Positions 8,207 to 35,572 of a DNA stretch of 38,749 nt are shown one piece after another. A model generated the notes under the pieces. It had not been told where the DNA came from. It made no database searches and was given only the letters and a program-made list of their open reading frames with translations. A program made the position numbers and the translations under genes. Origin of the DNA: an uncultured Bacteroidales bacterium (GTDB lineage Bacteria > Bacteroidota > Bacteroidia > Bacteroidales > Paludibacteraceae); assembly GCA_902774075.1 (NCBI GenBank), contig CACYGT010000017.1:1-38749 (forward strand), read 5' to 3'. Positions within the stretch are counted from its first letter, which is position 1; each line of letters begins with the position of its first letter.

Positions 8207-9295
8207 TTACTTTTTGTGGGCGGCGACGAAAAGTTGGACAGAATTAAAGAGATTTTGCCAGATGATATACGCCGCGGCGCCGAGGGCAGAAAGCGGATCG
8301 AGGAAAGTCTGCGCCATCCAGACCCCGAGGGAGGTGTTTTTTTGTCCGAAAGCCTGTCCGGCGGTGATGGAACTTACGCCTGCCATCGTCTTAGGAGCCG
8401 CGGCAGGGTTAATGAGCACATCCTGGTAGTCGCGGCCTTTGCTCGGAGCCGGCAGATAATAGCCGATCAGCTTGCCGAGGCTAAACTGAAGGAGGCAGGC
8501 GAAGAAAGAGCATATTAACAAAGTTAATATATTGGTAATTTGTAATTGGTAATTGGTAATTGTGGTTTCGGTTACTGTGGCTGTGAGGATGGTGATGGAG
8601 CAGACCCAGAGATAGAAAGGAATTTGCGCCAAAGATGGCGGCAAGGCAAATTCCTTGTGATTGGAAATTGGAGATTGGAGATTGGAGATTTTTTCGGAAT
8701 CCCGGAATCCCGGAATCTCGGTATCCCGATAACGGTAAAACATATTAAAACCTGCTCTTACAGCCCACGCCAAGAAGAACGGGCCGAGAAGGAGCGGGGC
8801 GATGCGGCGAAGGATCATCAAAAAGGCCGGCCAGAAACTCATATCTGCTGCGGGATTGATGAGCGGGAAAGTCGCCGGAACAATGATCGCTGTCGCGAAG
8901 TTACTCAGTAGAGTAAAAGACGTGAGATTTTGTATCGAACCTCCCATCTTTCCGGCAATGATAGGCGCTGCTGTCGCGGTCGGCATAATGAAGCACATCA
9001 GCAGTCCTTGCGCAAGAATGGGGTTCGCCGTGAAATGCATCACTCCGGCATAGGTAGCGAACGAGAAAAGCATCTGCGTAGCCAGTACCACCCAATGCCA
9101 TTTATGCAAGCGCAGATCGAGCGGGTTGACCTTGCAGAACGTAAAGAACAGCATAAAGAAGATCCACCAGGGCAAGGTCGGCTTGAGGGGCAGAAAGAGC
9201 TTGTAGCCGACTGCACCGATCAGCATCGAGAGCCACAAAGCATTCGCATCAAACAGACGTTTGATATTTGATATTTGAGATTTGAGATTTGACAT
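8207..9295 (-). CDS. BASS-family (bile acid:sodium symporter-like) membrane transporter
   Basis: A 362-residue polytopic membrane protein. The segment MPTATAAPIIAGKMGG followed by LTSFTLLSNFATAIIVPATFPL is characteristic of PF01758-like transporters, and the late INPAAAPKTMAGVSSITAGQ matches the second half of the inverted repeat. Substrate unknown. Three short-repeat arrays contribute residues: the N-terminus MSNLKSQISNIK, including the ATG itself, comes from the heptamers at 9260-9294; a ~27-residue segment in the middle (YRDTEIPGFRDSE, then ISNLQSPISNHKE) comes from 8694-8736 and 8659-8690; and TNYQLQITNI comes from 8532-8563. All are in frame, probably in connecting loops. Last gene of the gldD operon. 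Confidence 0.8.
   Translation of the reverse strand: MSNLKSQISNIKRLFDANALWLSMLIGAVGYKLFLPLKPTLPWWIFFMLFFTFCKVNPLDLRLHKWHWVVLATQMLFSFATYAGVMHFTANPILAQGLLMCFIMPTATAAPIIAGKMGGSIQNLTSFTLLSNFATAIIVPATFPLINPAADMSFWPAFLMILRRIAPLLLGPFFLAWAVRAGFNMFYRYRDTEIPGFRDSEKISNLQSPISNHKEFALPPSLAQIPFYLWVCSITILTATVTETTITNYQLQITNILTLLICSFFACLLQFSLGKLIGYYLPAPSKGRDYQDVLINPAAAPKTMAGVSSITAGQAFGQKNTSLGVWMAQTFLDPLSALGAAAYIIWQNLFNSVQLFVAAHKK
8532..8563. repeat. 7-bp array (attggta) inside the transporter gene
   Basis: About 4.5 units of attggta with one variant. It encodes TNYQLQITNI on the minus strand; the other strand would carry TAA in every frame. Confidence 0.85.
8659..8690. repeat. 7-bp array (gattgga) inside the transporter gene
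   Basis: About 4.5 units of gattgga (one aattgga). Encodes ISNLQSPISN on the minus strand. It lies 3 bp from the 8-bp array that follows. Confidence 0.85.
8694..8736. repeat. 8-bp array (ggwatcyc) inside the transporter gene
   Basis: Units ggaatccc, ggaatccc, ggaatctc, ggtatccc, gataacgg. Encodes YRDTEIPGFRDSE on the minus strand. Confidence 0.85.
9260..9294. repeat. 7-bp array supplying the transporter start codon
   Basis: Units ttgatat x2, ttgagat x2, ttgacat. The last variant unit reads ATGTCAA on the minus strand and provides the ATG at 9295; the rest encodes SNLKSQISNI. Confidence 0.85.
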
Positions 9296-9302
9296 TTTTT
9301 CG

Positions 9303-10364
9303 TTATGACGGTATACCGGAATCTCGGGACCCCGACCAATTATCTACAATATAATCCATTATCTTAAAGACCTCGTCGACCGTTTCAGCGCGGAGAAGGG
9401 CGATGCGGGTCTGCTTGAAGTCGGCAAGGCCCTTGAAGACCGGCGAGGCCGCAAAATGCCGTCGGGAGTGGACGATGCCCTTTCGCTCGTCACCGCCGCA
9501 CCAGGCGATGGAGGCGAGGACGTGCTCTTTGAGGATGGCGACTTTGTCGGCCATAGACCGCGGTATCTCGGTATCACGGTATCCCGGGATCCCGAGGCCT
9601 GCTTTTATCTCGGCGAAGAGCCAGGGGGCACCGAAAGTCGCGCGACCGATCATAATGGCATCGACGCCGTAGCGGTCAAAGCACTCTTTCGCGCGTTCGG
9701 GCGTACACACGTCCCCGTTTCCTATGATAGGAATACACATGCGCGGGTTGTTCTTGACCTCGCCGATGAGCGTCCAGTCGGCTTCGCCGCGGTACATCTG
9801 GTTGCGCGTGCGGCCGTGGATAGCGAGTTCTTGGATCCCGCAGTCCTGAAGGGCTTCGGCTAAAGCAACAATGAAATATTCCGGCATTCCGGTATCCCGG
9901 TATCCCGGTATCCCGAGGGGATTGATTCTTGGGATCAAATCGGACTCGTCCCAGCCGAGGCGGGTCTTGCAGGTGACGGGCGTATGAACGGCATTAACCA
10001 CCGCGCGGGTGATATCCAGCATCTTAGGCACATCGCGCAGCAGGCCGGCTCCTGCGCCCTTGCCCGCTACTTTCTTGACCGGACAGCCAAAATTGATGTC
10101 AATGAAGTCGGGCTTGGCCTGCTCCACTATCCTTGCCGCCTGAGCCATCGACTCGGGGTCTCGGCCGTAGATCTGGATAGCGACCGGACGTTCTTCGTCG
10201 TGGATGGTGAGCTTGCGGGTCGTAGAAGCGATATCCCGCACGAGGGCATCGGCGTTGACGAACTCCGTATAGACGCGATCGGCACCGTAGCGCTTGCACA
10301 GCGCACGGAAGGCCGGATCGGTCACATCCTCCATCGGGGCGAGATATAAGGGGTAGTTATTCAT
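9303..10364 (-). CDS. dusB: tRNA-dihydrouridine synthase, DusB-like
   Basis: A 353-residue FMN-dependent enzyme that reduces uridine in the tRNA D-loop. Diagnostic motifs: N-terminal LAPMEDVTDPAFR, DINFGCPVKKV with the catalytic Cys at ~94, HGRTRNQMY, and PIIGNGDV followed by MIGRA (FMN/phosphate binding). Its start overlaps the PgpH-like gene by 8 bp. Three 8-bp repeat arrays lie in frame: GIPGYRDTGMP at ~151-161 just after LGWDESD; GIPGYRDTEIPR at ~258-269 between the TIM barrel and the helical C-terminal domain; and GSRDSGIPS at the very C-terminus, directly before the stop. All three fall at loops or ends, so the enzyme may still work. Confidence 0.93.
   Translation of the reverse strand: MNNYPLYLAPMEDVTDPAFRALCKRYGADRVYTEFVNADALVRDIASTTRKLTIHDEERPVAIQIYGRDPESMAQAARIVEQAKPDFIDINFGCPVKKVAGKGAGAGLLRDVPKMLDITRAVVNAVHTPVTCKTRLGWDESDLIPRINPLGIPGYRDTGMPEYFIVALAEALQDCGIQELAIHGRTRNQMYRGEADWTLIGEVKNNPRMCIPIIGNGDVCTPERAKECFDRYGVDAIMIGRATFGAPWLFAEIKAGLGIPGYRDTEIPRSMADKVAILKEHVLASIAWCGGDERKGIVHSRRHFAASPVFKGLADFKQTRIALLRAETVDEVFKIMDYIVDNWSGSRDSGIPS
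9310..9335. repeat. 8-bp array at the dus C-terminus
   Basis: ggtatacc, ggaatctc, gggacccc; encodes GSRDSGIPS immediately before the TAA. Confidence 0.75.
9562..9596. repeat. 8-bp array inside dus
   Basis: ggtatctc, ggtatcac, ggtatccc, gggatccc, gag. Encodes LGIPGYRDTEIPR. Confidence 0.85.
9883..9917. repeat. 8-bp array inside dus
   Basis: ggcattcc followed by three exact ggtatccc units and gag; encodes LGIPGYRDTGMPE. The cleanest array of the 8-bp class. Confidence 0.9.
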
Positions 10365-12258
10365 TCAGCGTCGGATAACTGATGCGATGATGGTTCATAG
10401 CAACGAGGCGGGAGATGAAGACGCGGCGGATATCCTCGACGTCCTTGAAGCTCAGCGGCGTCTCGGCGAACTGTCCGTCGGCGATCTGCGCATCGATCAT
10501 CTGGTTCACAGCCTTGGAGATCGACTCCTCGGTGAAATCGTCGAGGCTGCGCGAGCGCGCTTCGATAGCATCTGCCATCATGAGGATCGCTGCCTCTTTG
10601 GTCGTCGGCTTCGGTCCGGGATAGCGGAAGAGGGCTTCATCCACTTTCTCTTTCGGGTGCGCATTGACGAAGGTGTTGTAGAAATAGCGCACGAGGGTAG
10701 TACCGTGGTGGGTGGTAATGAAGTTCACCACCACTTCCGGCAAGTGGTTGCGACGGGCTATCTTCTCGCCTTCCGTCACATGCGCAATAACGACCTGTGC
10801 TGCATCGCGCGGGTCCATCTTCAGCAGCGGATTCTCCACGCCGGTCTGGTTCTCTACATAGTAGAGCGGATCGGTCATCTTACCGATATCGTGATAGAGA
10901 GCGCCCGTACGTACGAGGAGCGCATTCGCGCCAATCGTCTTGGCCGCCTCGGCTGCGAGGTTAGACACCTGCATCGAGTGCTGGAAGGTACCCGGCGCAC
11001 GCTCGGCAAGGGTGTGCAGTAACTCGGAGTTGATATCCGTCAGTTCGACGAGGGTGATCGACGAGATGAAACGGAACATCTTCTCGAACGCATAAATCAA
11101 GCCGTAACAACCCACCGTGAGCAGCGCGCAGATGAAGAAATAAAGGTACATCCACGGGTCGATAGCCGACCAAGCGCCCGTCTGGGCAAAGGTGATGGCG
11201 GTATAAGCGACCGTCTGCACAAGCAGTATCCACGCGGCGGTCTGCACCAGTTGGGCGCGGCGAGTCATATCACTCAGCGACGAGACAGCCACCTGACCCA
11301 CTACGATCTGGATAAAGAAGAACTCCACCGGTGCAGGCACGACGATCGAAGTAATGAGGATCGTCGTGAAATGCAAGAAGAGAGCCGTACGGGAGTCGAA
11401 GAACACACGCGTCAGTATCGGCACCCAAGCAAAAGGAATCAGATAGACCGTGAGATTAAAACGCAGCGCCAGGCAGGCGAGACCGATGACGATAAACATC
11501 TGCAGCGCAAAGAAGAGTACGGTCGATGTCGAGCGCAGGTATTGAATACGGAAGACGTACAGATAAATGACGAACAGACAGAGGAAGAGCAACACCAGAA
11601 TCGTCTCGCCGAGGATCGAGAGCGTACGCTGTTTGTTACCCAACGACTCATCGTCATAAGCGCGTCGGAACGAAGTAAGAATCTGATAGTTACGTTCGGT
11701 CACTATCTCGCCTCTGTCGATGATCTTCTCGCCTTTCTGCACAAGTCCCATCGTAGGCGAAACAGAAGCCAGCAGTTTGCCTTTCATCTCCTCCGTACGA
11801 ACCGTATCAAGCACCAGATTGAGGGCGCAGTCGTAGCCAAAACGCTTATAAGCGGACTTAGGCGTGTAGATCTCGGACAGGGGATATTTGTTTTGGTTGA
11901 CGGTAATACGCGAATAGCCTTCGGCCTGCAACCACTCCATGTTCTCCAGCGAGATGACCTTAACCTCACGCTGCACACGGGGAACGTACTTAAAGAACGG
12001 TGCGAAGGTCGAGAGTAACTGCTGTTGCTCCTTCGACATCTGTTCTTCGGTCTTGTAGATCGGGAAGTCAAAATCCGCCGTGAGGGCCGAGTATCCCCAA
12101 GGTTTGCCTACCTCAAAATGATAGCGGAAGGCATTGTTGTAGCGCGGAAACATCAGCACGATGACGGCCGCCAGCACAACAAAAATACCAAGACGAAAAA
12201 CGGTTGCACCGTATTTCGAGTTGAAAGTTAAAAGTTTAAAGTTGAAAGGATTTTTCAT
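10357..12258 (-). CDS. PgpH-like 7TM-HD cyclic-di-AMP phosphodiesterase
   Basis: A 633-residue membrane protein with the order of the 7TMR-HD family: one N-terminal membrane segment (~20-40), an extracytoplasmic domain (~45-210), about seven membrane segments (~215-400), and a cytoplasmic HD domain (~415-600). Metal-binding motifs are visible: FQHSMQV (~425), HDIGKM (~453), AHVTEGE, and THHGT. Characterised PgpH homologues hydrolyse c-di-AMP; the same reaction is inferred here. The gene overlaps the fusion gene upstream by 1 nt (TAATG) and dus downstream by 8 bp. Residues 3-14 (NPFNFKLLTFNS) are encoded by a heptamer array (12219-12249) and look like an added N-terminal extension. Confidence 0.88.
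   Translation of the reverse strand: MKNPFNFKLLTFNSKYGATVFRLGIFVVLAAVIVLMFPRYNNAFRYHFEVGKPWGYSALTADFDFPIYKTEEQMSKEQQQLLSTFAPFFKYVPRVQREVKVISLENMEWLQAEGYSRITVNQNKYPLSEIYTPKSAYKRFGYDCALNLVLDTVRTEEMKGKLLASVSPTMGLVQKGEKIIDRGEIVTERNYQILTSFRRAYDDESLGNKQRTLSILGETILVLLFLCLFVIYLYVFRIQYLRSTSTVLFFALQMFIVIGLACLALRFNLTVYLIPFAWVPILTRVFFDSRTALFLHFTTILITSIVVPAPVEFFFIQIVVGQVAVSSLSDMTRRAQLVQTAAWILLVQTVAYTAITFAQTGAWSAIDPWMYLYFFICALLTVGCYGLIYAFEKMFRFISSITLVELTDINSELLHTLAERAPGTFQHSMQVSNLAAEAAKTIGANALLVRTGALYHDIGKMTDPLYYVENQTGVENPLLKMDPRDAAQVVIAHVTEGEKIARRNHLPEVVVNFITTHHGTTLVRYFYNTFVNAHPKEKVDEALFRYPGPKPTTKEAAILMMADAIEARSRSLDDFTEESISKAVNQMIDAQIADGQFAETPLSFKDVEDIRRVFISRLVAMNHHRISYPTLNE
12219..12249. repeat. 7-bp array (gttgaaa) at the pgpH-like N-terminus
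   Basis: gttgaaa, gttaaaa, gtttaaa, gttgaaa, gg. Encodes FNFKLLTFNS. Confidence 0.8.
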
Positions 12259-13403
12259 TATCTTTTGGCTTTAAAAAATTCTTGTATCAGTTCTTTGCAT
12301 TCGTCTTCGAGGACACCCGCTGTGACGGTTGCTTTGGGATGAAAAGCGCGGGGTGCATAGGTAGCATAGCCGCGTTTGGGATCGGGTGCGCCATATACAA
12401 TACGGCTTATCTGCGCCCAGCCGATCGCGCCGGCACACATCACACAAGGCTCCACCGTAACATACAGTGTTGCGTCCGGCAGGTACTTGCCGCCGAGTGT
12501 CTCCGCAGCGGCGGTGATGGCCTGTATCTCCGCGTGTGCGGTGACGTCCGAGAGGGTCTCGGTCAAGTTATGTCCGCGGCCGATGATCTGATTCTGGCTC
12601 ACGATGACGCAGCCGATAGGGATCTCGTCGGCCGCGAGGGCCTTGCGGGCCTCGAGAAGGGCGAGGGACATAAATTTCTCGTCGGTATCATTAGATACCG
12701 GTATCTCGGTATCTCGACAAAAGAGCGCTAAGTCCTCCGGCTTTTCTTCGAAATGGTTGCCGATGACGACGATGTCGGCGCCGGCGGCATAGGCGGCGTT
12801 CATCGCTTCCGGCGTACGGATTCCACCGCCGACGATCAGAGGCACCGAAGTCTTCGCACGCACCGCTTGGATGATCTCTGGCGAGACGGGATTGATTGCT
12901 CCCGATCCGGCTTCGAGATAGATAAGTTGTTTACCCATCATCTCTGCCGCAATACAAGTATCTACAATCGTATCGATGTCCGTCTGCGGGATAGGCTGCG
13001 TATCTGTCACCCGCATCGTCGAAGTCTCTACGCCGCCATCAATCAGAATATAGGCTGTTGGGACGAAATCCACCTTCGCTTCCCGAATTGCTCGTGCAGA
13101 CTTAATCTGCTGACCTACAAGGTATTCCGGGTTTCTGCCGGACAACAAAGAGAGGTACAGAACGGCATCTACCTCGGGCGTAAATTGGGACGAATTTCCT
13201 GGGAAAAGGATGATAGGTATTTGAGATTTGAGATTTGAGATTTGAGATTTGAGATTTCGTACAAACTCTGTCGGGTCACCGCCGGTAGAACCGCCGACGA
13301 AGATATAGTCGGGAAAGCAGGACTCCGAGATAGGCAGACGCGAGAGTTCGGCCTTTTCAGGGTCTAACAATAATGCCAAACTATGTTTCTTCTTTATTTC
13401 CAT
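12258..13403 (-). CDS. fusion of GGGP-synthase-like enzyme with tRNA adenosine deaminase TadA
   Basis: A 381-residue single frame with two enzymes. Residues 1-228 are a geranylgeranylglyceryl/heptaprenylglyceryl phosphate synthase (PcrB-like TIM barrel): ALLLDPEKA, FVGGSTGG, FPGNSSQ, YLEAGSGA, VGGGIRTPE. Residues ~241-381 are a complete TadA, which makes inosine at the wobble position of tRNA-Arg(ACG): zinc ligands H290 (HAE, catalytic E292), C320 and C323 (PCVMC). The linker (~229-240, CRDTEIPVSNDT) is encoded by an 8-bp repeat array, and a 7-bp array adds NLKSQISNLKSQI at ~50-62 inside the barrel. The two proteins are normally separate, and their functions (lipid, tRNA) are unrelated. Overlaps gldD by 10 bp and the pgpH-like gene by 1. 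Confidence 0.9.
   Translation of the reverse strand: MEIKKKHSLALLLDPEKAELSRLPISESCFPDYIFVGGSTGGDPTEFVRNLKSQISNLKSQIPIILFPGNSSQFTPEVDAVLYLSLLSGRNPEYLVGQQIKSARAIREAKVDFVPTAYILIDGGVETSTMRVTDTQPIPQTDIDTIVDTCIAAEMMGKQLIYLEAGSGAINPVSPEIIQAVRAKTSVPLIVGGGIRTPEAMNAAYAAGADIVVIGNHFEEKPEDLALFCRDTEIPVSNDTDEKFMSLALLEARKALAADEIPIGCVIVSQNQIIGRGHNLTETLSDVTAHAEIQAITAAAETLGGKYLPDATLYVTVEPCVMCAGAIGWAQISRIVYGAPDPKRGYATYAPRAFHPKATVTAGVLEDECKELIQEFFKAKR
12684..12717. repeat. 8-bp array forming the GGGPS-TadA linker
   Basis: ggtatcat, tagatacc, ggtatctc, ggtatctc, gac. Encodes CRDTEIPVSNDT exactly at the boundary of the two enzymes. Confidence 0.85.
13216..13257. repeat. 7-bp array (ttgagat) inside the GGGPS domain
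   Basis: About six units of ttgagat. Encodes RNLKSQISNLKSQI between the second and third strands of the barrel. Confidence 0.9.
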
Positions 13404-13960
13404 TTAAAACTCTCCACCATACGGCGGACATCTTTTCGCAGATATTCATAAACGGGCGCGAGGGAGTCGGCATTCGGCGGGCAGTTACAATAGACCGAAG
13501 CACGGAAGAAATGGCGTGTCGAATCGGTCACAAAGAACTGGCAGGACGAAGCCGTATTGCCCTCTAAATCAAACAGTACGCCATACACCTGCGCCTCGGG
13601 GTGCATAAACTCCTGCTCCGGTATTGCGCTGGCAAAAGAAGCGTTGCGATACACGAACTCCAGAGCATCATTGGTCAGTTCGCGCAAGTTATGCCTGACC
13701 GGTTTGTACGAACAGTGGATCGTAGCGTCCAGCGACGGGTAATAGAGGTTGATCCAGAACGGCTCGTCATTACGGGGCTGCACCTCGGCATTACGCGAGA
13801 GATCAAAGGTGTACGGATAACGCGGGAACTGCGTCTCAAAAGCCGTATAGGCCGTGTCCGGCGTCGTGATACGGTAATAGCCGTAGGGCTTGGGCGAAGA
13901 CACCCTGCCGCACGATGCCATCAAGAGGCACACACATACTATTTGAACGATTTTCCGCAT
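13394..13960 (-). CDS. gldD: GldD, gliding-motility/type IX secretion lipoprotein
   Basis: A 188-residue lipoprotein: signal peptide MRKIVQIVCVCLLMASC with the lipobox Cys at 17, then PKPYGYYRITTP and YPYTFDLSRNAEV, the conserved GldD opening, and a C-terminal FRASVYCNCPPNADSLAPV segment. I chose the ATG at 13960 because the open frame continues upstream only through the heptamer repeat and AT-rich DNA. GldD is required for gliding and for type IX secretion in Flavobacterium; in Bacteroidales its presence goes with T9SS, which suits the tagged secreted proteins in this window. First gene of the minus-strand operon. Confidence 0.9.
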   Translation of the reverse strand: MRKIVQIVCVCLLMASCGRVSSPKPYGYYRITTPDTAYTAFETQFPRYPYTFDLSRNAEVQPRNDEPFWINLYYPSLDATIHCSYKPVRHNLRELTNDALEFVYRNASFASAIPEQEFMHPEAQVYGVLFDLEGNTASSCQFFVTDSTRHFFRASVYCNCPPNADSLAPVYEYLRKDVRRMVESFKWK

Positions 13961-13968
13961 TTTCGGTA

Positions 13969-13976
13969 CAAAAGTA
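13969..13976 (-). promoter_or_regulatory. -7 box of the gldD operon
   Basis: Minus-strand TACTTTTG ending 9 nt before the gldD ATG, implying a very short or absent leader. The region where the -33 TTG should lie is occupied by the heptamer array 13983-14014. Confidence 0.55.
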
Positions 13977-13982
13977 GTAATA

Positions 13983-14014
13983 AAAGTTGAAAGTTGAAAG
14001 TTGAAAGTTGAAAG
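13983..14014. repeat. 7-bp array (aaagttg) in the gldD promoter
   Basis: 4.6 perfect units of aaagttg in the divergent gldD/manC gap, abutting the gldD -7 box. Confidence 0.9.
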
Positions 14015-14068
14015 ATACGCTATTTTTTGCCAAAAAGAACATTTTTTTAAAAGAAAATGCGCGCGCGC

Positions 14069-18593: not shown

Positions 18594-19856
18594 ATGAAAA
18601 ATATATGTTTATGCTTCCAGATGCACGCACCGTATCGTCTGAAGCGCTATCGTTTCTTTGAAATCGGCCACGATCATTACTACTACGATGACATGGCTAC
18701 CGAAGAGCATATCAACTGGTTGGTAGAGACCTCGTACATGCCGCTCTGCCAGACCCTTAAGGACATGATCAACCTCTCGAAGGGTAAGTTCCACTGCGCC
18801 ATCAGCGTCAGCGGTACCATGATCGAGATGTTCGAGCAGTTCAACCCCGAGATGATCGATATTCTCAAAGAGCTTGCGGCTACCAAAGCTGTGGAGTTCC
18901 TCGCTACCCCGTACAGCTACTCGCTCGCATCGGAGTACAACGAGGATGAGTTCAAGGCACAGCTTAAGCTCCAAGGCGCACTGCTGGAGTCTATCCTGGG
19001 AGTCAAGGCACAGACCGTTTGGAACACCGAGCTCCTCTACACCGACGAGACTGCGTATAACCTCAGTAAGTTAGGCTACAAAGCCATCCTCACCGAAGGT
19101 GCTAAACACGTGCTCAGCTGGAAGACCCCGAACAAGGTCTATCAGTCTGCCGGCGCGCCGAAGATGAAAGTGCTGCTGCGTAACACCAACCTCAGCGACG
19201 AACTGAGCTTCCATTTCTCGGATCCGGGTTGGCCTAACTTCCCCATCGACGCAGAGAAATACGCTGACCAGCTCAAGGCCCTGCCGGAGGGTGAGGACAT
19301 CATCAACATCTGGGTAGGCGCTGAGACTTTCGGGGTGCGTCAGAACGCAGGAACGGGTATCTTTGACTTCCTCAAAGCTCTGCCGTATTTCGCCCTCGAG
19401 CGTGAGATGGGCTTCATCACACCGGCCGAGGCAGCGAAGAAACTGGCAGCAGATGACGTGCTCTCCAGCCCGTATCCTCTGACCTGGACCGGCGAGGCCA
19501 AAGACCTGAGCATCTACACCGGCAACGACCTGCAGCAGGAGGCTATCCACAAGCTGTTCGCCGTAGCGGAGCGTGTACATATGTGCCAGGACAAGGCGCT
19601 GAAGACCAACTGGTTACGTCTCCAGGATGTCAACTATCTCCACTTCATGAACCATATCGATCAGGGTGCTACGCAGTTCGAGTCCGCATACGATGCGTTC
19701 ATCAACTACATGAACATCCTGTCTGATTTCCTGCAGACCGTCGAAGAGCAGTACCCGACGACCATCGAGAACGAGGAGCTGAACGCCCTGCTCAAGACCA
19801 TCCGCAACCAAGAGGAGGAGATACAACTTCTTCAAGCTAAGCTTAAGAAGAAGTAA
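18594..19856 (+). CDS. GH57-family alpha-amylase
   Basis: A 420-residue protein beginning MKNICLCFQMHAPYRLKRYR, the GH57 first-strand motif (FQMHQPYR-like), with VWNTELLYT (the catalytic nucleophile Glu region) and WVGAETFG later. The C-terminal ~60 residues form a predicted helical coil (TIRNQEEEIQLLQAKLKKK). GH57 enzymes hydrolyse alpha-1,4-glucan. Third gene of the glycogen cluster. Its TAA directly abuts a heptamer array that runs into the next gene. Confidence 0.9.
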   Translation: MKNICLCFQMHAPYRLKRYRFFEIGHDHYYYDDMATEEHINWLVETSYMPLCQTLKDMINLSKGKFHCAISVSGTMIEMFEQFNPEMIDILKELAATKAVEFLATPYSYSLASEYNEDEFKAQLKLQGALLESILGVKAQTVWNTELLYTDETAYNLSKLGYKAILTEGAKHVLSWKTPNKVYQSAGAPKMKVLLRNTNLSDELSFHFSDPGWPNFPIDAEKYADQLKALPEGEDIINIWVGAETFGVRQNAGTGIFDFLKALPYFALEREMGFITPAEAAKKLAADDVLSSPYPLTWTGEAKDLSIYTGNDLQQEAIHKLFAVAERVHMCQDKALKTNWLRLQDVNYLHFMNHIDQGATQFESAYDAFINYMNILSDFLQTVEEQYPTTIENEELNALLKTIRNQEEEIQLLQAKLKKK

Positions 19857-19890
19857 TTTGAGATTTTAAATTTTAAATTTCAAATTTGAA
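19856..19890. repeat. 7-bp array (attttaa) at the GH57/porin junction
   Basis: atttgag, attttaa x2, atttcaa, atttgaa: five heptamers filling the gap. The TTG start of the next gene lies in the last unit. Confidence 0.8.
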
Positions 19891-21838
19891 ATTAAAGCGT
19901 AGCTTTATAGTATTAGTGCTGTTGGCAGCGACCCTTGTGGCCGCTGCCAAGCAGCCTCGTATCCGCACGGTGGTCAAGACCTGGCAGATGCCTTCGTTCA
20001 GCGCCGTAGCGGACACCATCCCCTTCCGGGACACTGTCATGCTCAACTACCACGACGTAGATGTCCAGCAGATCTACTCGCTCAGCAGCACCATGAACGG
20101 AAACATCCTCGTCTCGCCCATCCAGTCGCGTGTCGTACAGGACCGTAAGCAGACCATCCAGGACCCGTTCGCCTACAGCCTCACGCCGTACGTCGTCACC
20201 CCCCAGGAACAGCGGTACTTCAACACCACCGTTCCTTTCTCCACCGTAGCCTACAAGAAAGGTTTTGTCACCGGACACGAAGAGAACGACATCGACTTCC
20301 TCTTCACCGGTAACATCGGCCGACGCCTTAATCTCGGCCTCGAGATGGACTACCTCAGCTCCATCGGACACTACAAATACACAGCCGGCAAGCTGTTCCG
20401 CGGCTCCGTTTGGGGCAGTTACACCGGCTCCCACTACAGCATGCACGCCGCCTTCGGCTGGAGCCGGCTCAACTCCTTCGACAACGGCGGTCTGCAAGAC
20501 GTCGAACAACTCAACAGCAGCCTCAGTTGCGAGGACCTGCCTGTGCGCCTCAGCCGAGAAGGTGTCATGACGGGCTACCGTTACCTCAGCGGATACCTTC
20601 ATAACCAGTACGCCATCACCAAAGAGCACGCTTACCACGACTCTATCGAAGCCATCGTCGACGGACGGCGCACGAAGATAGACACCGTACGCGTGGACTA
20701 TATACCCCTTATGACTTTCAGTCATATCTTCGAGACCAACAACTCCAACAGGCGTTATATCGAGAAGACCTCCAACCAGGGCTTCTACGACAATATCTAC
20801 TGCGACTCCACCAAGACGAACGACTCCACGGACGTCCTCACCATACGCAACACCCTCGCCGTCACTTTCTGCGAGGCCTACAACACCAAGCTCAAGTTCG
20901 GCGCCACCGTCTACGCCATGAACGAGTGCCAGCGGTTCCTCAACGACTCCGTGCCTTACGACAGCATCTACGACTATAAATGGACCAACAACACCTTCGT
21001 CGGCGGCGCGATACACAAGCACTCCGGCTCACACGTCCACTACAACGTCGAGGGACAGGTCTGCCTGCTCGGTTATAAGATCGGCGAGTTCGACGTACAC
21101 GGTGCCCTCAAGACGCAGTTCATGGCGGGTAAGTATCCTTTTGAGATATCCGCACGCGCGTACGCCAAGAGCGAGAAACCCAGCTGGTACTACCAGCACT
21201 TCCGCTCCAACCACCTTTGGTGGGACAATAACTTCGGCTTCACCTACCGCTTCATGGGCGGTGCGACGATCGCGTACCTCTACAAATGGCTCAAGCCCCG
21301 TATCGACTTCAGTTTTGAGAACCAGACCAACCCTATCTACGTCTCCGCCTCCGACTGGAAACCCCGTCAGTTCAACGGTAACGTACAGATCATCACCGGC
21401 GACATCGGCCTCGACCTCACCACCCCGTGGATCAACCTCGAGAACCGCGTCGTCATCCAGCACAGCACCAACGACTCTGTCATGCCCGTGCCTCTCGCCA
21501 TCCTCCAGCACCGCCTCTACTACCACGGCACCTGGTTCAAGGCCCTCGACGCACAGATAGGCGTCGACCTGCGCTATTTCACGCGTTATCACGCACCCGT
21601 CCTCTGCCCCGCGACCGGCATGTTCGGCACACAGCAGGACACCGAGATAGGTAACTACCCCTGGATGAGCGTCTACGCCAGCTTCTACGTGCGCTCCATA
21701 CACCTGCGCTTCTTTGCGCACTACCAGCATATCAACCACCTCTTCATGAAGCATAACATTAACTACCTCACTATGCCCAATTATCCGACCAATCGCGATG
21801 TCTTCCGTGCGGGCTTAGCTTGGCATTTTTATAACTAG
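19886..21838 (+). CDS. putative outer-membrane porin (Bacteroidetes porin family)
   Basis: A 650-residue protein with a signal peptide (MKLKRSFIVLVLLAATLVAAA). Features match the Bacteroidetes putative-porin family: a YFNTTVPFSTVAYKKG segment, FTGNIGRRLNLGLEMDYLSS, then many alternating aromatic/polar strands ending in a C-terminal beta signal (RAGLAWHFYN, terminal aromatic F-Y). Likely an outer-membrane beta-barrel for passive uptake. The start is TTG at 19886, inside the heptamer array; no ATG lies between the previous stop and the signal peptide, so the TTG seems genuine. Neither substrate nor a link with glycogen is shown by the sequence. Confidence 0.82.
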   Translation: MKLKRSFIVLVLLAATLVAAAKQPRIRTVVKTWQMPSFSAVADTIPFRDTVMLNYHDVDVQQIYSLSSTMNGNILVSPIQSRVVQDRKQTIQDPFAYSLTPYVVTPQEQRYFNTTVPFSTVAYKKGFVTGHEENDIDFLFTGNIGRRLNLGLEMDYLSSIGHYKYTAGKLFRGSVWGSYTGSHYSMHAAFGWSRLNSFDNGGLQDVEQLNSSLSCEDLPVRLSREGVMTGYRYLSGYLHNQYAITKEHAYHDSIEAIVDGRRTKIDTVRVDYIPLMTFSHIFETNNSNRRYIEKTSNQGFYDNIYCDSTKTNDSTDVLTIRNTLAVTFCEAYNTKLKFGATVYAMNECQRFLNDSVPYDSIYDYKWTNNTFVGGAIHKHSGSHVHYNVEGQVCLLGYKIGEFDVHGALKTQFMAGKYPFEISARAYAKSEKPSWYYQHFRSNHLWWDNNFGFTYRFMGGATIAYLYKWLKPRIDFSFENQTNPIYVSASDWKPRQFNGNVQIITGDIGLDLTTPWINLENRVVIQHSTNDSVMPVPLAILQHRLYYHGTWFKALDAQIGVDLRYFTRYHAPVLCPATGMFGTQQDTEIGNYPWMSVYASFYVRSIHLRFFAHYQHINHLFMKHNINYLTMPNYPTNRDVFRAGLAWHFYN

Positions 21839-24670: not shown

Positions 24671-24744
24671 GGTCCGGTAGCTCAGTTGGATAGAGCAACA
24701 GCCTTCTAAGCTGTGGGTCTCGGGTTCGAATCCCGACCGGATCA
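24671..24744 (+). tRNA. tRNA-Arg (anticodon TCT)
   Basis: A full cloverleaf: acceptor GGTCCGG / CCGGATC (one G-U), D-arm GCTC...GAGC, anticodon stem ACAGC / GCTGT with loop CTTCTAA (anticodon TCT, codons AGA/AGG), T-arm TCGGG TTCGAAT CCCGA, discriminator A. CCA is not encoded. Confidence 0.95.
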
Positions 24745-24747
24745 CAT

Positions 24748-24780
24748 CACTAAACACTAAACGCTAAACGCTAAACGTTA
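24748..24780. repeat. 7-bp array (cgctaaa) between tRNA-Arg and rpoD
   Basis: cactaaa x2, cgctaaa x2, cgtta; begins 4 nt after the tRNA and ends just before the sigma factor ATG. Confidence 0.85.
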
Positions 24781-26810: not shown

Positions 26811-26894
26811 TATACACTGTACACCTTACACCGTAACCCGTAACCCGTAACCTATAACCCGTAACCCGTAACCCGTAACCCGTAACCTATAACC
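26811..26894. repeat. 7-bp array (cgtaacc) spanning the tgt/lptG junction
   Basis: About twelve heptamers (tatacac, tgtacac, cttacac, cgtaacc x3, tataacc, cgtaacc x4, tataacc). It fills the whole gap. The tgt stop TAG lies inside it, and the lptG GTG adjoins it. It is telomere-like in look but ordinary in position. Confidence 0.92.
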
Positions 26895-28020
26895 TCTTCA
26901 TCAAATCCGGCATCACGCTTGCCTTCCATGCAGAGTAGTCTCCGTCGAGAATATGTTTTCTGGCTTGGGTGACGAGTTCGAGATAGAACGCCAAGTTATG
27001 TATCGACAGCACTTCCAGTCCCAACATCTCTTGCGCGTGTATTAAATGACGAACGTACGCGCGCGTGTACGCGTGATCGACGTAACTCGTGCCCGCCGGA
27101 TCCAGCTCCGTGAAGTCGTCCTCCCATTTCTTGTTGCGCAGGTTCATCACGCCGTTCCAGGTGAAGATCATACCGTTGCGGCCGTTGCGCGTCGGCATCA
27201 CGCAGTCGAACATATCCACGCCCCGCTCTATCGCCTCTAATATGTTCCATGGTGTACCGACACCCATCAGGTAGCGCGGCTTGTCTGTCGGCAATATGTC
27301 GTTGCACACCTCTATCATCTCGTACATCACCTCCGTCGGTTCGCCTACCGCCAGTCCGCCTATCGCGTAGCCGTCGCGGTCCAGGTCGCGCAACCGCTTG
27401 CACGCCTCCTGTCTCAGGTCCGTGTACGTACAGCCCTGTACGATCGGGAACAGGTGCTGGGTATATCCGTACAGGTCGTCGGTCCCGTCGAACCGCGCGA
27501 TGCAGCGGTCCAGCCACCGGTGCGTACGGTCCATACTGTCTTTGGCGTATTTCCTATCCGCCGTGCCGGGGCAGCACTCGTCGAACGCCATCATGATGTC
27601 CGCACCTATCTCCCGCTCGATGTCCATCACACCCTCCGGCGTGAACAGCAGCTTGCGACCGTCGATATGACTGCTGAAGCGTACGCCCTCCTCGCTCATC
27701 TTACGGATGTCCGTCAGACTAAACACCTGAAATCCGCCGCTGTCCGTCAATATCGGCCGGTCCCAGCCCTCGAAGCGGTGGAGACCTCCTGCGCTATGCA
27801 GTATCTCTGTGCCGGGACGCAGAAACAGATGGTAGGTGTTACCGAGTATGATCTGCGCCTTGATGTCCTCTTCCAGCTCCTTCCGCTGCACACCCTTCAC
27901 CGTCCCTACCGTTCCTACCGGCATGAATATCGGCGTCAGGATATCCCCGTGGTCGGTATGTATCACTCCCGCCCTCGGTCCAACACCCTTCGGCTCACTA
28001 TGTAATTCGAAAAATTTCAA
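26887..28020 (-). CDS. tgt: queuine tRNA-ribosyltransferase (tRNA-guanine transglycosylase)
   Basis: A 377-residue TIM-barrel enzyme that swaps guanine-34 for the queuosine precursor in tRNAs with GUN anticodons. Motifs: PIFMPVGTVGTVKG, LTDSGGFQVFSL, AFDECCPG, GGLAVGEP, and FDCVMPTRNGRNG with the nucleophile Asp. The C-terminal zinc site is odd: where bacterial Tgt has C-x-C-x2-C, this protein has DPAGTSYVDHAYTRAY with none of the three cysteines. The start appears to be TTG at 28020; the last codons and the TAG come from the heptamer array. Middle gene of panD-tgt-lptG. Confidence 0.93.
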   Translation of the reverse strand: MKFFELHSEPKGVGPRAGVIHTDHGDILTPIFMPVGTVGTVKGVQRKELEEDIKAQIILGNTYHLFLRPGTEILHSAGGLHRFEGWDRPILTDSGGFQVFSLTDIRKMSEEGVRFSSHIDGRKLLFTPEGVMDIEREIGADIMMAFDECCPGTADRKYAKDSMDRTHRWLDRCIARFDGTDDLYGYTQHLFPIVQGCTYTDLRQEACKRLRDLDRDGYAIGGLAVGEPTEVMYEMIEVCNDILPTDKPRYLMGVGTPWNILEAIERGVDMFDCVMPTRNGRNGMIFTWNGVMNLRNKKWEDDFTELDPAGTSYVDHAYTRAYVRHLIHAQEMLGLEVLSIHNLAFYLELVTQARKHILDGDYSAWKASVMPDLMKRL

Positions 28021-28022
28021 CT

Positions 28023-28054
28023 AACAATTTAACAGTTTAACGGTTTAACGGTTT
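28023..28054. repeat. 8-bp array (aacggttt) at the panD/tgt junction
   Basis: aacaattt, aacagttt, aacggttt x2, aacgtgtt. Its minus strand encodes the last panD residues TLNR and the TAA. Confidence 0.85.
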
Positions 28055-28428
28055 AACGTGTTTCCCGCCCCTGGAAAAACAATACTGGGTTTGAAAGATC
28101 TTGCTTCTTCGGGGGTAAGAAGCGCGTAGCTCATGATAATGACGGTATCGCCGACATGAACGAGATGCGCCGCCGCGCCGTTGATGCATATGCACCCTGA
28201 GCCGCGCTTACCCGCTATCACGTATGTCTCCAGCCGTGCGCCGTTGTTGTTATCCACCACCTGCAGCCGTGCGCCGTTGTTGTTATCCACCACCTGCACC
28301 CGTTCACCGGCGTATATGTTCGCCGCTTCCATCAGTGCCTCATCGATCGTGATCGAACCGATATACTCTAAGTTCGCCTCCGTCACCTGCACCCGATGAA
28401 TCTTCGATTTTAATATATTGATCAACAT
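28045..28428 (-). CDS. panD: aspartate 1-decarboxylase with an internal 11-residue duplication
   Basis: A 127-residue pyruvoyl-dependent enzyme making beta-alanine for pantothenate. I chose the ATG at 28428 because numbering then matches E. coli PanD exactly: Lys9, the self-cleaving Gly24-Ser25, and Arg54; the 19 codons further upstream come from a repeat. A perfect 33-bp duplication repeats [11 protein letters not shown], so Arg54 reappears as Arg65 and the active-site Tyr58 becomes Tyr69. [12 protein letters not shown] is intact. The last four residues and the stop are encoded by the 8-bp array. Whether the enlarged loop allows catalysis is uncertain. First gene of its operon. Confidence 0.9.
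28231..28296. repeat. 33-bp perfect tandem duplication in panD
   Basis: Two identical copies (28231-28263, 28264-28296) with no mismatches, so it is recent or kept identical. Confidence 0.95.
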
Positions 28429-28432
28429 AATT

Positions 28433-28471
28433 CTACACCTTACACCGTACACCTTACACTGTACGCCTAAC
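28433..28471. repeat. 7-bp array (ttacacc) forming the panD leader
   Basis: ctacacc, ttacacc, gtacacc, ttacact, gtacgcc, taacc. It fills the transcript leader between the panD promoter and start codon. Confidence 0.85.
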
Positions 28472-30533: not shown

Positions 30534-30539
30534 ATTTTT

Positions 30540-33095: not shown

Positions 33096-33166
33096 AGGTA
33101 TATGTTTTTTTAATTATTTTTGCTTGTTATACGTATCTTTGTCGCTTTTTCGCTTAAAAAAGCGTG

Positions 33167-33198
33167 CAAAGTTACAACTTTTTTTGCACATGTGCAAG
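33167..33198 (-). promoter_or_regulatory. promoter of glgP
   Basis: Minus-strand TAACTTTG (33167-33174), 20-nt spacer, CTTG (33195-33198). Confidence 0.7.
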
Positions 33199-33214
33199 AT
33201 TTTTTGTAATTTTG
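33183..33214 (+). promoter_or_regulatory. promoter of the RNase R-like gene, interlocked with the glgP promoter
   Basis: TTTG (33183-33186), 20-nt spacer, TAATTTTG (33207-33214). The -33 boxes of both divergent promoters are the ends of a perfect palindrome TTGCACATGTGCAA (33184-33197). Confidence 0.75.
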
Positions 33215-33254
33215 CATCCGATTTTATGATTTTGTGTACTATAATTAGCAATCC

Positions 33255-34562
33255 ATGTTTGTTGCCAACGACATACAGAACGAGATAATTCGCAGACGCG
33301 ACATGCGCGAGGCGTTTACCTTTACCATAGACCCTGCCGACGCCAAGGACTTCGATGATGCGATATCTTTTGAGCGGTTGCCGGTTACCGATGAAGGGTT
33401 ACCGGAGACGTATCAAATCGGTGTGCATATCGCCGATGTGTCGTTCTATGTGCGGCCGGGTACCAAGATCGATGACGAAGCATACCAGCGCGGCACGTCC
33501 GTCTATCTCGTCGACCGCGTGCTGCCCATGCTGCCCGAAGAGCTGTGCAACGACAAGTGCTCCCTTCGACCGGGCGAAGACAAACTCTGTATGTCCGTCG
33601 TCTTCACGATGGACACCGAGGCCCGCGTACTCAAATACAAGATCTGCCGCACCGTCATCCGCTCCGACGCACGCCTCAACTATGACGAAGCGCAAGATAT
33701 AATCAAAGGTAATCAGGTCTGTAATCTGTCTTCTGTACTCTGTACTCTTAATTCTCTCGCCGCCAAACTCCGGGCGGAGCGGATCGCGAAAGGGGCGCTG
33801 ACGATTGAGCAGAAAGAGACACGCTTCAGACTGGACAGCAAGGGGCATCCGACTCAGATCTATTTTGAGGAACCGAACGAGGCGCATCACCTGATCGAAG
33901 AGTTCATGCTGCTGGCTAACCGCACCGTAGCAACGGCGGTAGGCTCCGGACGGCCGTTTGTCTATCGCGTACACGATCTGCCGGACCAGGAGAAGCTCGA
34001 AGAAGTGAAGAAATTCAAGCGCCAGAACGGACGCAGAGGCAATGGCGAATGGTTGCAGCAAACGCTTGATATGCTGACGATTAGGGCGCAGGCGAAAGCA
34101 GTCTATTCGACCTATAACATCGGCCACTACGGCCTTGCTTTTACGCACTATACCCACTTCACCTCCCCTATCCGTCGTTACCCCGATCTAATGGTGCATC
34201 GGCTAGTGGAGAAGTACATCTTGACCGGCAAACCGATCTCGCTGACCCGCGAAGAACTGGAGGAAAAATGTGAGCACTGCTCGGCGTGTGAGCAGGAAGC
34301 GGCGCAGGCGGAGCGCGACTCGATACGGCTCTATCAGACCATGTGGATGGAGGACAAGCTCGGCCAGGTCTTTGACGGCCATATCACAGGCATGCAGGAT
34401 TTCGGGTTCTTTGTCCAGCTGGACGAGAGCCGTTGCGAGGGCCTCGTGCGCATGGAGCTGATTGAGCACCCCGAAGACTTTGTGCTGGGCGATCCGGTGC
34501 GCGTACAAGTGATCCGAGTGGACGTAAATCGCAGTCAGATTGATTTTGAGTTCGTTTTTTGA
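33255..34562 (+). CDS. rnr: compact RNase R/RNase II-family exoribonuclease
   Basis: A 435-residue 3'-5' exoribonuclease, against ~700 or more for usual RNase R. The RNB catalytic motif TIDPADAKDFDDAIS (metal-binding Asp residues) and YGLAFTHYTHFTSPIRRYPDLMVHRL are intact, and a C-terminal S1 domain (GQVFDGHITGMQDFGFFVQL) is present. Missing are the whole N-terminal HTH/cold-shock part (the protein begins ~25 residues before the catalytic Asp cluster), ~40 residues after RVHDLPDQEKLEEVKKF, and a loop in S1. A heptamer array inserts VCNLSSVLCTLNSL at ~155-170. The promoter sits directly upstream, so no 5' part is missing from the window. Activity cannot be judged. Confidence 0.85.
   Translation: MFVANDIQNEIIRRRDMREAFTFTIDPADAKDFDDAISFERLPVTDEGLPETYQIGVHIADVSFYVRPGTKIDDEAYQRGTSVYLVDRVLPMLPEELCNDKCSLRPGEDKLCMSVVFTMDTEARVLKYKICRTVIRSDARLNYDEAQDIIKGNQVCNLSSVLCTLNSLAAKLRAERIAKGALTIEQKETRFRLDSKGHPTQIYFEEPNEAHHLIEEFMLLANRTVATAVGSGRPFVYRVHDLPDQEKLEEVKKFKRQNGRRGNGEWLQQTLDMLTIRAQAKAVYSTYNIGHYGLAFTHYTHFTSPIRRYPDLMVHRLVEKYILTGKPISLTREELEEKCEHCSACEQEAAQAERDSIRLYQTMWMEDKLGQVFDGHITGMQDFGFFVQLDESRCEGLVRMELIEHPEDFVLGDPVRVQVIRVDVNRSQIDFEFVF
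33709..33757. repeat. 7-bp array (gtactct) inside the RNase R-like gene
   Basis: gtaatct, gtcttct, gtactct x2, taattct, with degenerate units before. It is read in frame. Confidence 0.75.
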
Positions 34563-34570
34563 CCAAAATC

Positions 34571-34601
34571 TTGTGTATATCAAAAAAAAGTAGTACTTTT
34601 G
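34571..34601 (+). promoter_or_regulatory. promoter of the outer-membrane protein gene
   Basis: TTG (34571-34573), 20-nt spacer, TACTTTTG (34594-34601). The ATG at 34610 is only 8 nt after the box, so the mRNA should be nearly leaderless. Confidence 0.7.
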
Positions 34602-34609
34602 TAGCCGAT

Positions 34610-35350
34610 ATGAGAAAGATAGCCTTTTTAACAGTCTTTTTGGCGCTCGTGTGTGTATGTGCGCACGCGGAAACCGTAGTATTGCGTACGGGCACGCGCG
34701 TGCAGGGTACGATCGTGTTCCAGAACGAAGAAGTGGTCATCGTGCGCAATGCCGAGGGACAGCGTTTTCAGTACATGCGTGCGGATGTGGCCTCTATAGA
34801 GACGTCAGAAGTCAGTGTTCAGCAGTCAGATTCTGTAGCCGAGGCGGAACCGGAGATCCAGGTGCAGAAGAAAGCGTCTATCCTGCTGGAGTTGGCGGGC
34901 GGTAGCGCGTGTATGCCGGGCGAGAACTTCGGCGGTGCTGCGAGTGTCGACCTGCTGGTGGGCAGCCATCATATCAAGAACCGCCATGTGTTCGTCGGCG
35001 GCGGTGTGGGTTATCACGGCGTGTTCTTAGGCGCAGACAAGTATAATTTCCTGCCTATCCAGGCTGCTGTACGTATGCCGCTGACGGAAGAGAAGCATGC
35101 CCCGATGTTCGGCGTGGCGGTCGGTTACGGCGTGGCACTGAGCAAAGACTATCTGGGCGGTCTCTACGCCGGAGCTGACTTCGGTTATCGCTGCCAACTC
35201 AACCCCAAGACGGCCATCGCGCTCGTCTTCTACACACAGTTCCAACAGGCGCGGGTCAATACGACCGTGACGATTGACGAGCAGGAGTTCACCAATAAAG
35301 TCGGCCGCAGTCTCGTTAATTTTGGCGGTAAGTTCGCATTGTATTTTTAA
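34610..35350 (+). CDS. small outer-membrane beta-barrel protein
   Basis: A 246-residue protein. I chose the ATG at 34610 because the signal peptide MRKIAFLTVFLALVCVCAHA begins there; an in-frame ATG 51 nt upstream lies before the promoter. An SH3-like strand region (TVVLRTGTRVQGTIVFQNEEVVIV, then QYMRADVASIE) precedes ~150 residues of alternating strands (LLVGSHHIKNRHVFVGGGVGYHGVF, LYAGADFGYRC) ending LVNFGGKFALYF, a terminal aromatic typical of barrels. Role unknown. Its TAA overlaps the next gene's ATG (TAATG), so the two are coupled. Confidence 0.75.
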   Translation: MRKIAFLTVFLALVCVCAHAETVVLRTGTRVQGTIVFQNEEVVIVRNAEGQRFQYMRADVASIETSEVSVQQSDSVAEAEPEIQVQKKASILLELAGGSACMPGENFGGAASVDLLVGSHHIKNRHVFVGGGVGYHGVFLGADKYNFLPIQAAVRMPLTEEKHAPMFGVAVGYGVALSKDYLGGLYAGADFGYRCQLNPKTAIALVFYTQFQQARVNTTVTIDEQEFTNKVGRSLVNFGGKFALYF

Positions 35351-35529
35351 TGAAAAAAGCCCCGCGAGAAAATAGGATAAGTATCTTGCTCAATGACAGT
35401 GAGCAGCGCGCGCTGGACCGATTCTGCGAGCGGTACAAGATCAAGAACCGTAGCCGTCTCGTTCGCGAGACCCTCATGCGGGCTATCCTCAAGAAGATTG
35501 ATAACGATCAGCCTACGTTGTTTGATTAG
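35350..35529 (+). CDS. 59-residue ribbon-helix-helix-like protein
   Basis: ATG at 35350 overlapping the previous stop; ends TAG at 35527-35529. The sequence RENRISILLNDSEQRALDRF then KNRSRLVRETLMRAILKKID fits a ribbon-helix-helix: one basic strand, two helices, with NRSRLVRE in the second helix. A basic N-terminus and the ending PTLFD are shared by small conserved Bacteroidales proteins I recall. Probably a DNA-binding regulator; target unknown. The heptamer array starts in its stop codon region. Confidence 0.7.
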   Translation: MKKAPRENRISILLNDSEQRALDRFCERYKIKNRSRLVRETLMRAILKKIDNDQPTLFD

Positions 35530-35572
35530 GTTACGGGTTACCGGTTATGGGTTACCGGTTATGGGTTACCGA
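35528..35572. repeat. 7-bp array (gggttac/cggttat alternating) after the RHH gene
   Basis: Alternating gggttac and cggttat heptamers (a 14-bp higher unit repeated 2.5 times), lying between the RHH stop codon and the terminator. Confidence 0.88.

Follow-up and report, generated by a model that had tools for sequence, protein, structure and literature searches.

The window, a stretch of 38,749 nucleotides from an uncultured Bacteroidales bacterium of the Paludibacteraceae (contig CACYGT010000017.1), contains short tandem arrays with units of mostly 7 and less often 8 or 11 bp, which lie at gene junctions and inside genes. The arrays are genuine and far above chance, their units fall into families which recur at unlinked loci, and the orthologous sites in sister species often hold arrays of other units. 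The window lies on contig C17 of G000, the draft of the source species (1,797,085 bases, 95 contigs, 85.75% complete).

We used Tandem Repeats Finder (TRF; minimum score 30) and a stricter self-comparison period scan to detect the arrays of the window. The sample comprises the window and 20 further 20-kb stretches of G000, 438,749 bases in total; six of the 20 stretches (from C3, C6, C8, C14, C16 and C23) come from contigs already known for ATTTGAG arrays, which biases the density. Gene calls are simple and our own, and the placement of an array in a gene or at a junction rests on them. Relatives are represented by syntenic regions of five species of the same genus (G366, G354, G357, G353 and G355), each species with a single genome, at 75-80% identity where closest. 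Loci outside the window carry L numbers.

Arrays of the window and their counterparts in relatives

The arrays at 8138, 12219, 12684, 28434, 33718 and 35529 were found with TRF, and all others described here with both TRF and the period scan; a strand is given where one is assigned. A transporter-like open reading frame (ORF) at 8207-9295 contains three arrays on the minus strand: ATTGGTA (8531..8562), ATTGGAG (8659..8690) and, adjoining the latter, an 8-bp array of CGGAATCC (8695..8728). The relatives have GATAGAT, AAAGGTG and AATGAAT arrays at the 8531 stretch. The Dus gene contains two 8-bp arrays of CGGTATCC, both on the minus strand, at 9561..9594 and 9877..9915. At the first of these sites G357 and G355 are 27 bp shorter; at the second G366 has GCTGTTA units, G353 and G354 a repeat with the core CTGTAAGACCG, and G357 a GGGAGGG-type repeat. 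A palindrome-like CCCTCCC...GGGAGGG insert is seen in G366/G357 at the 9561 site (L029) and the 9878 site (L030), as a third kind of repeat in these loops. In G353/G354 (L031, L032) the 11-base core CTGTAAGACCG with short variable spacers is found at both sites, and in L031 also at 12684.

The N-terminus of the 7TM-HD gene contains an AGTTGAA array (12219..12248, minus strand), where G366 and G354 have ATTTGTG arrays. An 8-bp array of CGGTATCT (12684..12716, minus strand) encodes the linker between PcrB and a TadA-type deaminase, and an ATTTGAG array (stop-free as CTCAAAT; 13219..13257, minus strand) lies within the PcrB part. The RNB-domain gene contains about four imperfect copies of TCTGTAC (33718..33748, plus strand), and an 11-bp array is found at this site in G353.

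Concerning the remaining arrays, an 11-bp array of CATTCTATAGT is located at 88..123, adjoined by a ParE-type toxin gene (199-525), and an 11-bp array of TAAAACCCTAA with about three copies at 8138..8171. The array at 9260..9297 (minus strand), at a tandem-gene junction, has TTTGATA and then TTTGAGA units, an order of unit variants which is found again at L028:9887 and L016:6006. An AAAGTTG array (13983..14014) lies at a divergent junction by our gene calls, with AAAGGTG in G357 and AATTAAA in G366. AATTTGA units and their variants (19855..19893) run from the GH57 stop towards a porin gene, with AATTGAA at this site in G353. The CTAAACG array (24748..24777) lies between the tRNA-Arg and a sigma-70 gene, and no array is present at this site in any of the five relatives; the tRNA-Arg (TCT) gene (24671-24777 region) stops 2 bases short of it. 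A compound array, in which TTACACC passes into CCGTAAC units, fills the LptF/G-Tgt junction (26811..26895); at this site G366 has AATTCTT, G354 CTGTAAC, and G357 the same family as G000 in inverted orientation. The Tgt-PanD junction contains an 8-bp array of TTTAACGG (28022..28063), with CGTCATTA-type octamers in G366 and G357. TACACCT/TACACCG units (28434..28468) lie near the 5' end of the PanD ORF, where the distance between anchors is 16 bp in G357 against 38 bp. The PanD (aspartate decarboxylase) gene also has a 33-bp unit in 2.2 copies (28231-28303; 97% match), equal to about 11 extra residues. A 7/14-bp array of GGTTATGGGTTACC is located at 35529..35571. Alternating AAATGACAAAATGGT-like units of about 14-15 bp, perhaps composites of 7 and 8, are seen at L016:15228-15290, at L023:7300-7353 and at the 9260 site in G366.

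Period, placement and reading frame

A preliminary description of this DNA had listed 21 array positions in the window, and TRF confirms 19 of them; at the other two (9310 and 25684) there are degenerate runs of octamers, which can be made out by eye only. In the strict scan of the window (periods 2-13) eight arrays have period 7, four period 8 and one period 11, with none at other periods and none in five Markov-shuffled copies of the window. The TRF listing also has rows of period 9, 10, 12, 16, 19 and 33. Across the 438,749 bases of G000 the array counts are 51 for period 7, six for period 8, four for period 9, five for period 11 and 13 for longer periods; none has period 2-6, 10, 12 or 13, and shuffled sequence gave no arrays. 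With a looser score, in a scan limited to periods 5-12, G000 has 89 arrays: 71 of period 7, six of period 8, five of period 9, one of period 10 and six of period 11. The unit length had been called strictly 7, 8 or 11 bp, which is correct for 83 of these 89; the remainder have period 9 or 10. Typical arrays have 4-5 units and about 30-35 bp, and most measure 20-60 bp overall. At the looser score, period 7 accounts for 47/57 arrays in G366, 13/18 in G357 and 15/20 in G354; in G353 period 7 is found in 12/28, period 8 in nine and period 11 in six.

The genome-wide period histogram proposed earlier has a strong peak at 7 and small ones at 8 and 11 rather than no enrichment, and a length-setting copying process is still the natural reading. 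Two traits of the class of long simple sequence repeats (LSSRs) are thereby found: short tandem units beyond chance with a peak at 7 (51 against 0 in shuffled sequence), and dispersal over many loci. An assembly artefact is the least credible source of such arrays. Twenty-one genus genomes are indeed fragmented (about 20 to 230 contigs each), but in-gene arrays keep the frame at the same sites in independent genomes, and AAATCTC arrays are also present in the complete isolate chromosome NZ_CP061800.1.

The 89 arrays of G000 comprise 39 in genes, 35 at tandem, 7 at convergent and 2 at divergent junctions, and 6 at sequence ends. The in-gene share lies below the coding fraction of 0.863; the arrays do not show the mainly intergenic placement of cyanobacterial STRR. 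In 20 cases a heptamer array spans nearly all of a tandem junction between stop and start. Among 39 tandem-junction arrays with one open strand, 30 have their stop-bearing strand in the direction of the genes (p 0.001; five genomes). Exactly one open strand is found in 113/158 heptamer arrays, 0.715 against 0.539 for letter-shuffled units; counted by distinct family, the excess is not significant (0.578 vs 0.498, standard deviation 0.053). The orientation bias and the one-open-strand excess could be taken to mean that junction arrays have a role for the neighbouring genes, as the excerpted text of MacGregor 2015 (PMC4679880) suggests a translational role for TAACTGA. Yet 39 of the 89 arrays lie within genes, many orthologous junctions are array-free, the excess does not hold by distinct family, and viability filtering would yield the same orientation bias; such a role is in our view quite unlikely.

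In-gene heptamers are mostly read from the stop-free strand, in agreement with the preliminary description; in the exceptions variant units keep the frame open, or the array ends at the stop. That description also gave six window genes with in-frame arrays. By our count there are five: the transporter-like ORF (8531, 8660, 8695), Dus (9561, 9878), 7TM-HD (12219), PcrB-TadA (12684, 13219) and RNB (33718); the sixth, GldD (13983), needs a longer start. In-gene hosts in the sample include Dus, 7TM-HD, PcrB-TadA, RibD, PrmC (three arrays in 296 residues), LeuRS, a DUF5915 class I synthetase, LytB (IspH), PrmA, FecCD and EamA proteins. Dus, PrmC, LeuRS, the DUF5915 class I synthetase, LytB, PrmA and RibD are conserved protein genes with in-frame arrays, as is also seen for Rickettsia palindromic elements (RPEs). 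As regards the surface or antigen genes with which phase-variation (contingency) repeats are associated, the hosts here comprise transporters along with tRNA synthetases, PrmC, Dus and LytB. Compared with an E. coli-type PrmC (2b3t), one PrmC array takes the place of other sequence, the length differing by a single residue. The Dus array at 9877 falls at alignment gaps relative to the DusB chain 6ei9 and looks like an insertion. By eye, N-terminal heptamer arrays encode the hydrophobic cores of apparent signal peptides in the genes at L028:1706-2578, L021:2147-2812, L010:12329-13669 and L023:13056-14306.

PcrB and the TadA-type deaminase form one reading frame in G000, G366, G357 and G354. In G358 and G365 they are separate tandem genes with a stop between them, and the G358 junction holds an 11-bp array (L202:726-754); the loci compared are window 12258-13403, L202 258-1400 and L199 12264-13371. 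In the examined stretches of G353 and G355, TadA has no adjoining PcrB. The linker is CRDTEIPVSNDT in G000, CRHNDMTSLRND in G366, CRDHEITRSRDHEKD in G357 and a CTGTAAGACCG-type repeat peptide in G354. The three octamer linkers have a CGnnAT skeleton in common (by eye), and because of this shared skeleton their sequences suggest a common origin with later drift.

Unit families, shared strings and reuse of sites

The commonest heptamers of G000 are AAATCTC (eight arrays), AAATATC and AAAGTTG (five each), and AAATTTC and AAAGGTG (four each); those of G366 are AAAGGTG (nine) and AATAGCC (five). A common unit is found in 78/2485 within-genome array pairs of G000 and 62/1081 of G366, i.e. 3-6% of pairs, against 0.0008 for random intergenic 7-mers. 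The unit sequence is therefore not free, as had been thought: the units fall into recurrent families common to many loci. Particular species show bursts of particular families. Three units of TTACACC, with one mismatch allowed, are matched 18 times in G000 and not at all in 60 further genomes of the family (two of the same genus). Three units of AATAGCC are matched 25 times in G366 and 0 to 4 times in each of the remaining 40 genus genomes (7/41 with any). Three units of AAATCTC are matched in 17/41 genus genomes (44 times in G385, 21 in G000). The same heptamer written backwards is matched in 21/41 (at order level in 6 of 295 genomes, against 10 for AAATCTC), so no single sequence is special and the backwards pattern is not a neutral control. 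Four units of AAATCTC occur in at least 116 public-genome stretches of many phyla, by record titles; the other arrays in those stretches number 107 of period 7, 25 of period 14 and 19 of period 8. TAACTGA is absent from the printed unit families of the five genomes, which are the 25 commonest per genome and period.

Two candidate properties were not retained. Strand purity (units without G or without C) is seen in 58/105 arrays vs 36.3 expected; the excess is weak by distinct family (27/61 vs 21.7), which makes it a property of the commonest families. Genomes G245, G341, G365, G362 and G358 (16-25 kb each) were considered heptamer-free, but G358 and G365 hold backwards-heptamer arrays.

Several processes could be behind units of fixed length. 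Local replication slippage alone, in which slips of about 7 nt are favoured and left unrepaired and fast turnover at unconstrained sites gives differing units, fits the dominance of period 7 across phyla whatever the unit, and would have a basis in the polymerase-footprint idea of Mrazek, as cited in the partial texts of PMC4679880 and PMC4692102. Slippage alone does not account for the recurrence of units at unlinked loci, at a rate about 40-70 times that of random 7-mers. Loss of mismatch repair as the cause was dismissed, mutS1 being above the cut-off in 12/12 genus genomes. Copying of short RNA templates by a telomerase-like reverse transcriptase would go with a fixed step and few unit families per genome. 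The Pfam domain RVT_1, however, was found in only 2/12 genus genomes (G366 and G353) and not in the incomplete draft G000, and we hold this route to be very improbable. Three array-rich stretches, 60,000 bases in all, gave no match to a known RNA family at the gathering score.

Exact imperfect strings of at least 25 bp are common to 28/3721 within-genome array pairs, several of which stem from one duplicated G366 region. The string TTGATATTTGATATTTGAGATTTGAGATTTGA is found at both window 9260 and L028:9887. The string CTTTCACCTTTAACCTTTCACC has 52 matches (at least two of them overlapping) in 9/41 genus genomes, its backwards control none, and the 30 copies examined form 22 flank clusters. In 11 of 18 cases a unit flanked by two CTTTCAC units reads CTTTAAC. 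Growth in place predicts imperfections specific to each locus; identical imperfect strings at unlinked loci thus speak against slippage alone and indicate the spread of modules, although the preliminary description had deemed the spread of a transposed element unlikely. Longer dispersed matches were also considered as a mobile element and discarded, since by eye they are Bacteroidetes-type promoter sequences.

Miniature transposable elements moved by a transposase, of the REPIN, MITE or RPE type, would be another way of dispersing modules over loci, and the in-frame presence in conserved genes along with intergenic copies resembles RPEs as described in the excerpted PMC2229807. By eye, however, the compared filled and near-empty sites have no terminal inverted repeat, fixed end or target duplication (no systematic search was made), the module length is variable, and an inverted arrangement is only occasional (the L023:12248 site in G366). 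We consider such elements improbable.

For the comparison of sites, 50 arrays of G000 (score at least 12) in the window and in L024, L016 and L023 were mapped on both strands; these three stretches were picked for array richness, and the syntenic pieces of the relatives cover them only in part. Anchors were available for 33 arrays in G366, 29 in G354, 20 in G357, 22 in G353 and 10 in G355 (window-like stretches only). An array at the orthologous site was counted at a score of at least 11, after removal of duplicates; sites common to several relatives make pooled p values rough. Compared with other unaligned gaps, orthologous sites are more often occupied by an array in G366 (17/30 vs 9/56, p 0.00017) and G354 (8/24 vs 5/56, p 0.017), with a borderline result in G357 (5/18 vs 4/49, p 0.051). 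Within genes, 17/37 orthologous sites of four relatives have an array, against 62/5520 control draws, which overlap. Reuse of in-gene sites is clear in all four: 7/13 vs 23/1406 random draws in G366, 2/7 vs 13/1181 in G357, 5/9 vs 10/1592 in G354 and 3/8 vs 16/1341 in G353. The four in-gene rows of G355, outside this count, have no array.

The units at a shared site frequently differ. Among 32 same-site heptamer pairs, some of them from a common segment, 18 differ at three or more of seven bases and eight at one or none. The mean number of differences is 2.31 at the same site, 2.69 at different sites between genomes, 2.56 at different sites within a genome and 2.88 for letter-shuffled units. 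PrmC at L024:16602 has AAATTTC units in G000 and AAAGGTT units in G366, 41 bp each; L024:16802 has AATCTCC in G000 vs GAATACA in G366; and RibD at L024:15692 has CCCGTAA in G000 vs TCCATTG in G353. G354 is near-empty at three junctions, with 5, 6 and 13 bp between anchors vs 35, 58 and 54 in G000. In 41 of 47 rows the length of an in-gene site differs by a multiple of 3, while each 7-mer slip would shift the frame in housekeeping genes; this is a further difficulty for slippage alone, although selection predicts the same. The inverted family in G357 at the 26811 site is likewise not what slippage in place would give.

Origin of the arrays and relation to known repeats

The period bias, the unit families, the reuse of sites with different units, the identical imperfect strings at unlinked loci and the orientation bias are directly supported. 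We favour, with a probability of roughly 0.5, dispersed heptamer-class modules which are copied between loci and kept where tolerated, together with local slippage. Modules would be copied from locus to locus within a genome, giving each species its own set of unit families. A copy would be retained where its sequence is tolerated, i.e. in junctions from stop to start and in the loops, linkers and signal peptides of proteins. Units with a stop on one strand only would suit junctions and genes alike, since one strand is open to reading in every frame and the other has stops in all of them. At a spot which holds an array, other modules and local slippage would go on replacing what is there; sister species would thus keep the spot and often not the unit.

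Several observations weigh against this account by dispersal and slippage. Neither a copying enzyme nor, by eye, a terminal repeat or a target duplication was found. Of the 30 copies of the CTTTAAC string, 26 lie within minus-strand open frames of at least 195 codons, and the change to CTTTAAC removes a TGA on the other strand, so that selection explains part of its recurrence; several other changes would also remove that TGA, and L030:6031, upstream of GldD, has the variant without a long minus-strand frame. Imperfect strings of at least 25 bp are also common to 32/8588 between-genome pairs (16 of the 20 longest shown belong to the CTTTCAC family), which means that the copying may be old and partly predate these species. 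Arrays at orthologous sites are not in excess in G353 (5/20 vs 8/52, p 0.49) or G355 (0/9 vs 0/17). At junctions G366 (12/19 vs 17/97) is the sole relative with a significant result, those of G357 (3/12), G354 (4/17) and G353 (2/13) not being significant. Units at the same site resemble each other slightly more than those at different sites, which makes part of the reuse a matter of descent, and the in-phase related arrays at 13219 (G354/G357) and at L016:16515 (G354) fit plain drift. At 75-80% identity the species are too distant for single events to be seen.

The closeness of same-site units and the in-phase related arrays also count in favour of local slippage alone; on balance of the evidence given above we judge it a possible but rather unlikely account of the whole. 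A dedicated copying activity, which would advance by a constant 7 (more rarely 8 or 11) nucleotides, write and rewrite genome-specific units at junctions and in protein loops, swap families at spots that are themselves retained, and make repeat-linked fusions, is a doubtful extension of the dispersal of modules.

Concerning known systems, heptamer repeats as such are already known from Cyanobacteria, Beggiatoaceae, Xanthomonas and some Bacteroidetes. The cyanobacterial STRR are reportedly (Mazel and co-workers, 1990) degenerate 7-bp tandem arrays, dispersed and mainly intergenic. The likeness to them is by description only and lies in the dispersed degenerate heptamers, the mainly intergenic trait not being matched. 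Very small mobile repeats in cyanobacteria, which Elhai and co-workers are said to have described in 2008, could be close to the arrays found here. Paludibacter propionicigenes belongs to the Bacteroidales. According to the excerpted text of MacGregor 2015 (PMC4679880), TAACTGA arrays are present in five Bacteroidetes including this species, and the earlier statement that no counterpart is described in Bacteroidales was too strong.

In the same excerpts (PMC4679880), the forward TAACTGA heptamers give stops in all three frames. The arrays here resemble these repeats of Beggiatoaceae, Cyanobacteria and some Bacteroidetes in the stops in all frames of one strand, the overlap with the upstream stop, the nearness to starts, the reverse copies in ORFs, the shorter intergenic regions of repeat-free relatives, the admixture of other heptamers (Microcystis, some Bacteroidetes) and a mobility considered possible. 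That study, in the part cited, has one unit in focus, and related heptamers are rare in its main genome; here dozens of families, octamers and 11-mers are found in one genus, and same-site units differ between sister species. The prokaryotic LSSRs of Mrazek et al. 2007, as reported in parts of PMC4679880 and PMC4692102, are rich in heptamers, with slippage proposed as their source. The arrays share with them the dominance of period 7 among longer units and the genome-wide scatter, but many lie here in the middle of conserved genes and units are exchanged at orthologous sites. The excerpted PMC4692102 describes GGGAATC and GGGGA(C/T)T repeats of Xanthomonas and Nostoc. These likewise include heptamers at the same gene junctions in related species (two Xanthomonas), with variation in length and sequence; the large in-gene share sets our arrays apart.

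RPEs, as far as the excerpts of PMC2229807 go, are likewise small and form part of the reading frame of conserved protein genes, but they are palindromes of 105-146 bp, whereas the arrays here are mostly 20-60 bp and tandem. REPINs (partial text of PMC3116915) are likewise small and dispersed, but form palindromic pairs tied to RAYT transposases; no REPIN-like ends were seen by eye in our arrays. The minisatellite reported from Porphyromonas gingivalis (PMC4596501) is a tandem repeat of Bacteroidales as well, but lies within an inverted-repeat element, a MITE. Neither unit exchange at conserved in-gene sites nor array-linked gene fusion was found in the open-licence literature searched, as far as the excerpts of that literature extend.

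That bacterial microsatellites prefer units of seven bases has stood as an unexplained remark since 2007. A genus with different heptamer arrays at orthologous spots, in coding sequence as well as in spacers, is a natural experiment on copying between loci versus regrowth in place. The arrays also show a route from short repeats to protein loops, signal peptides and gene fusions, such as the PcrB-TadA protein.

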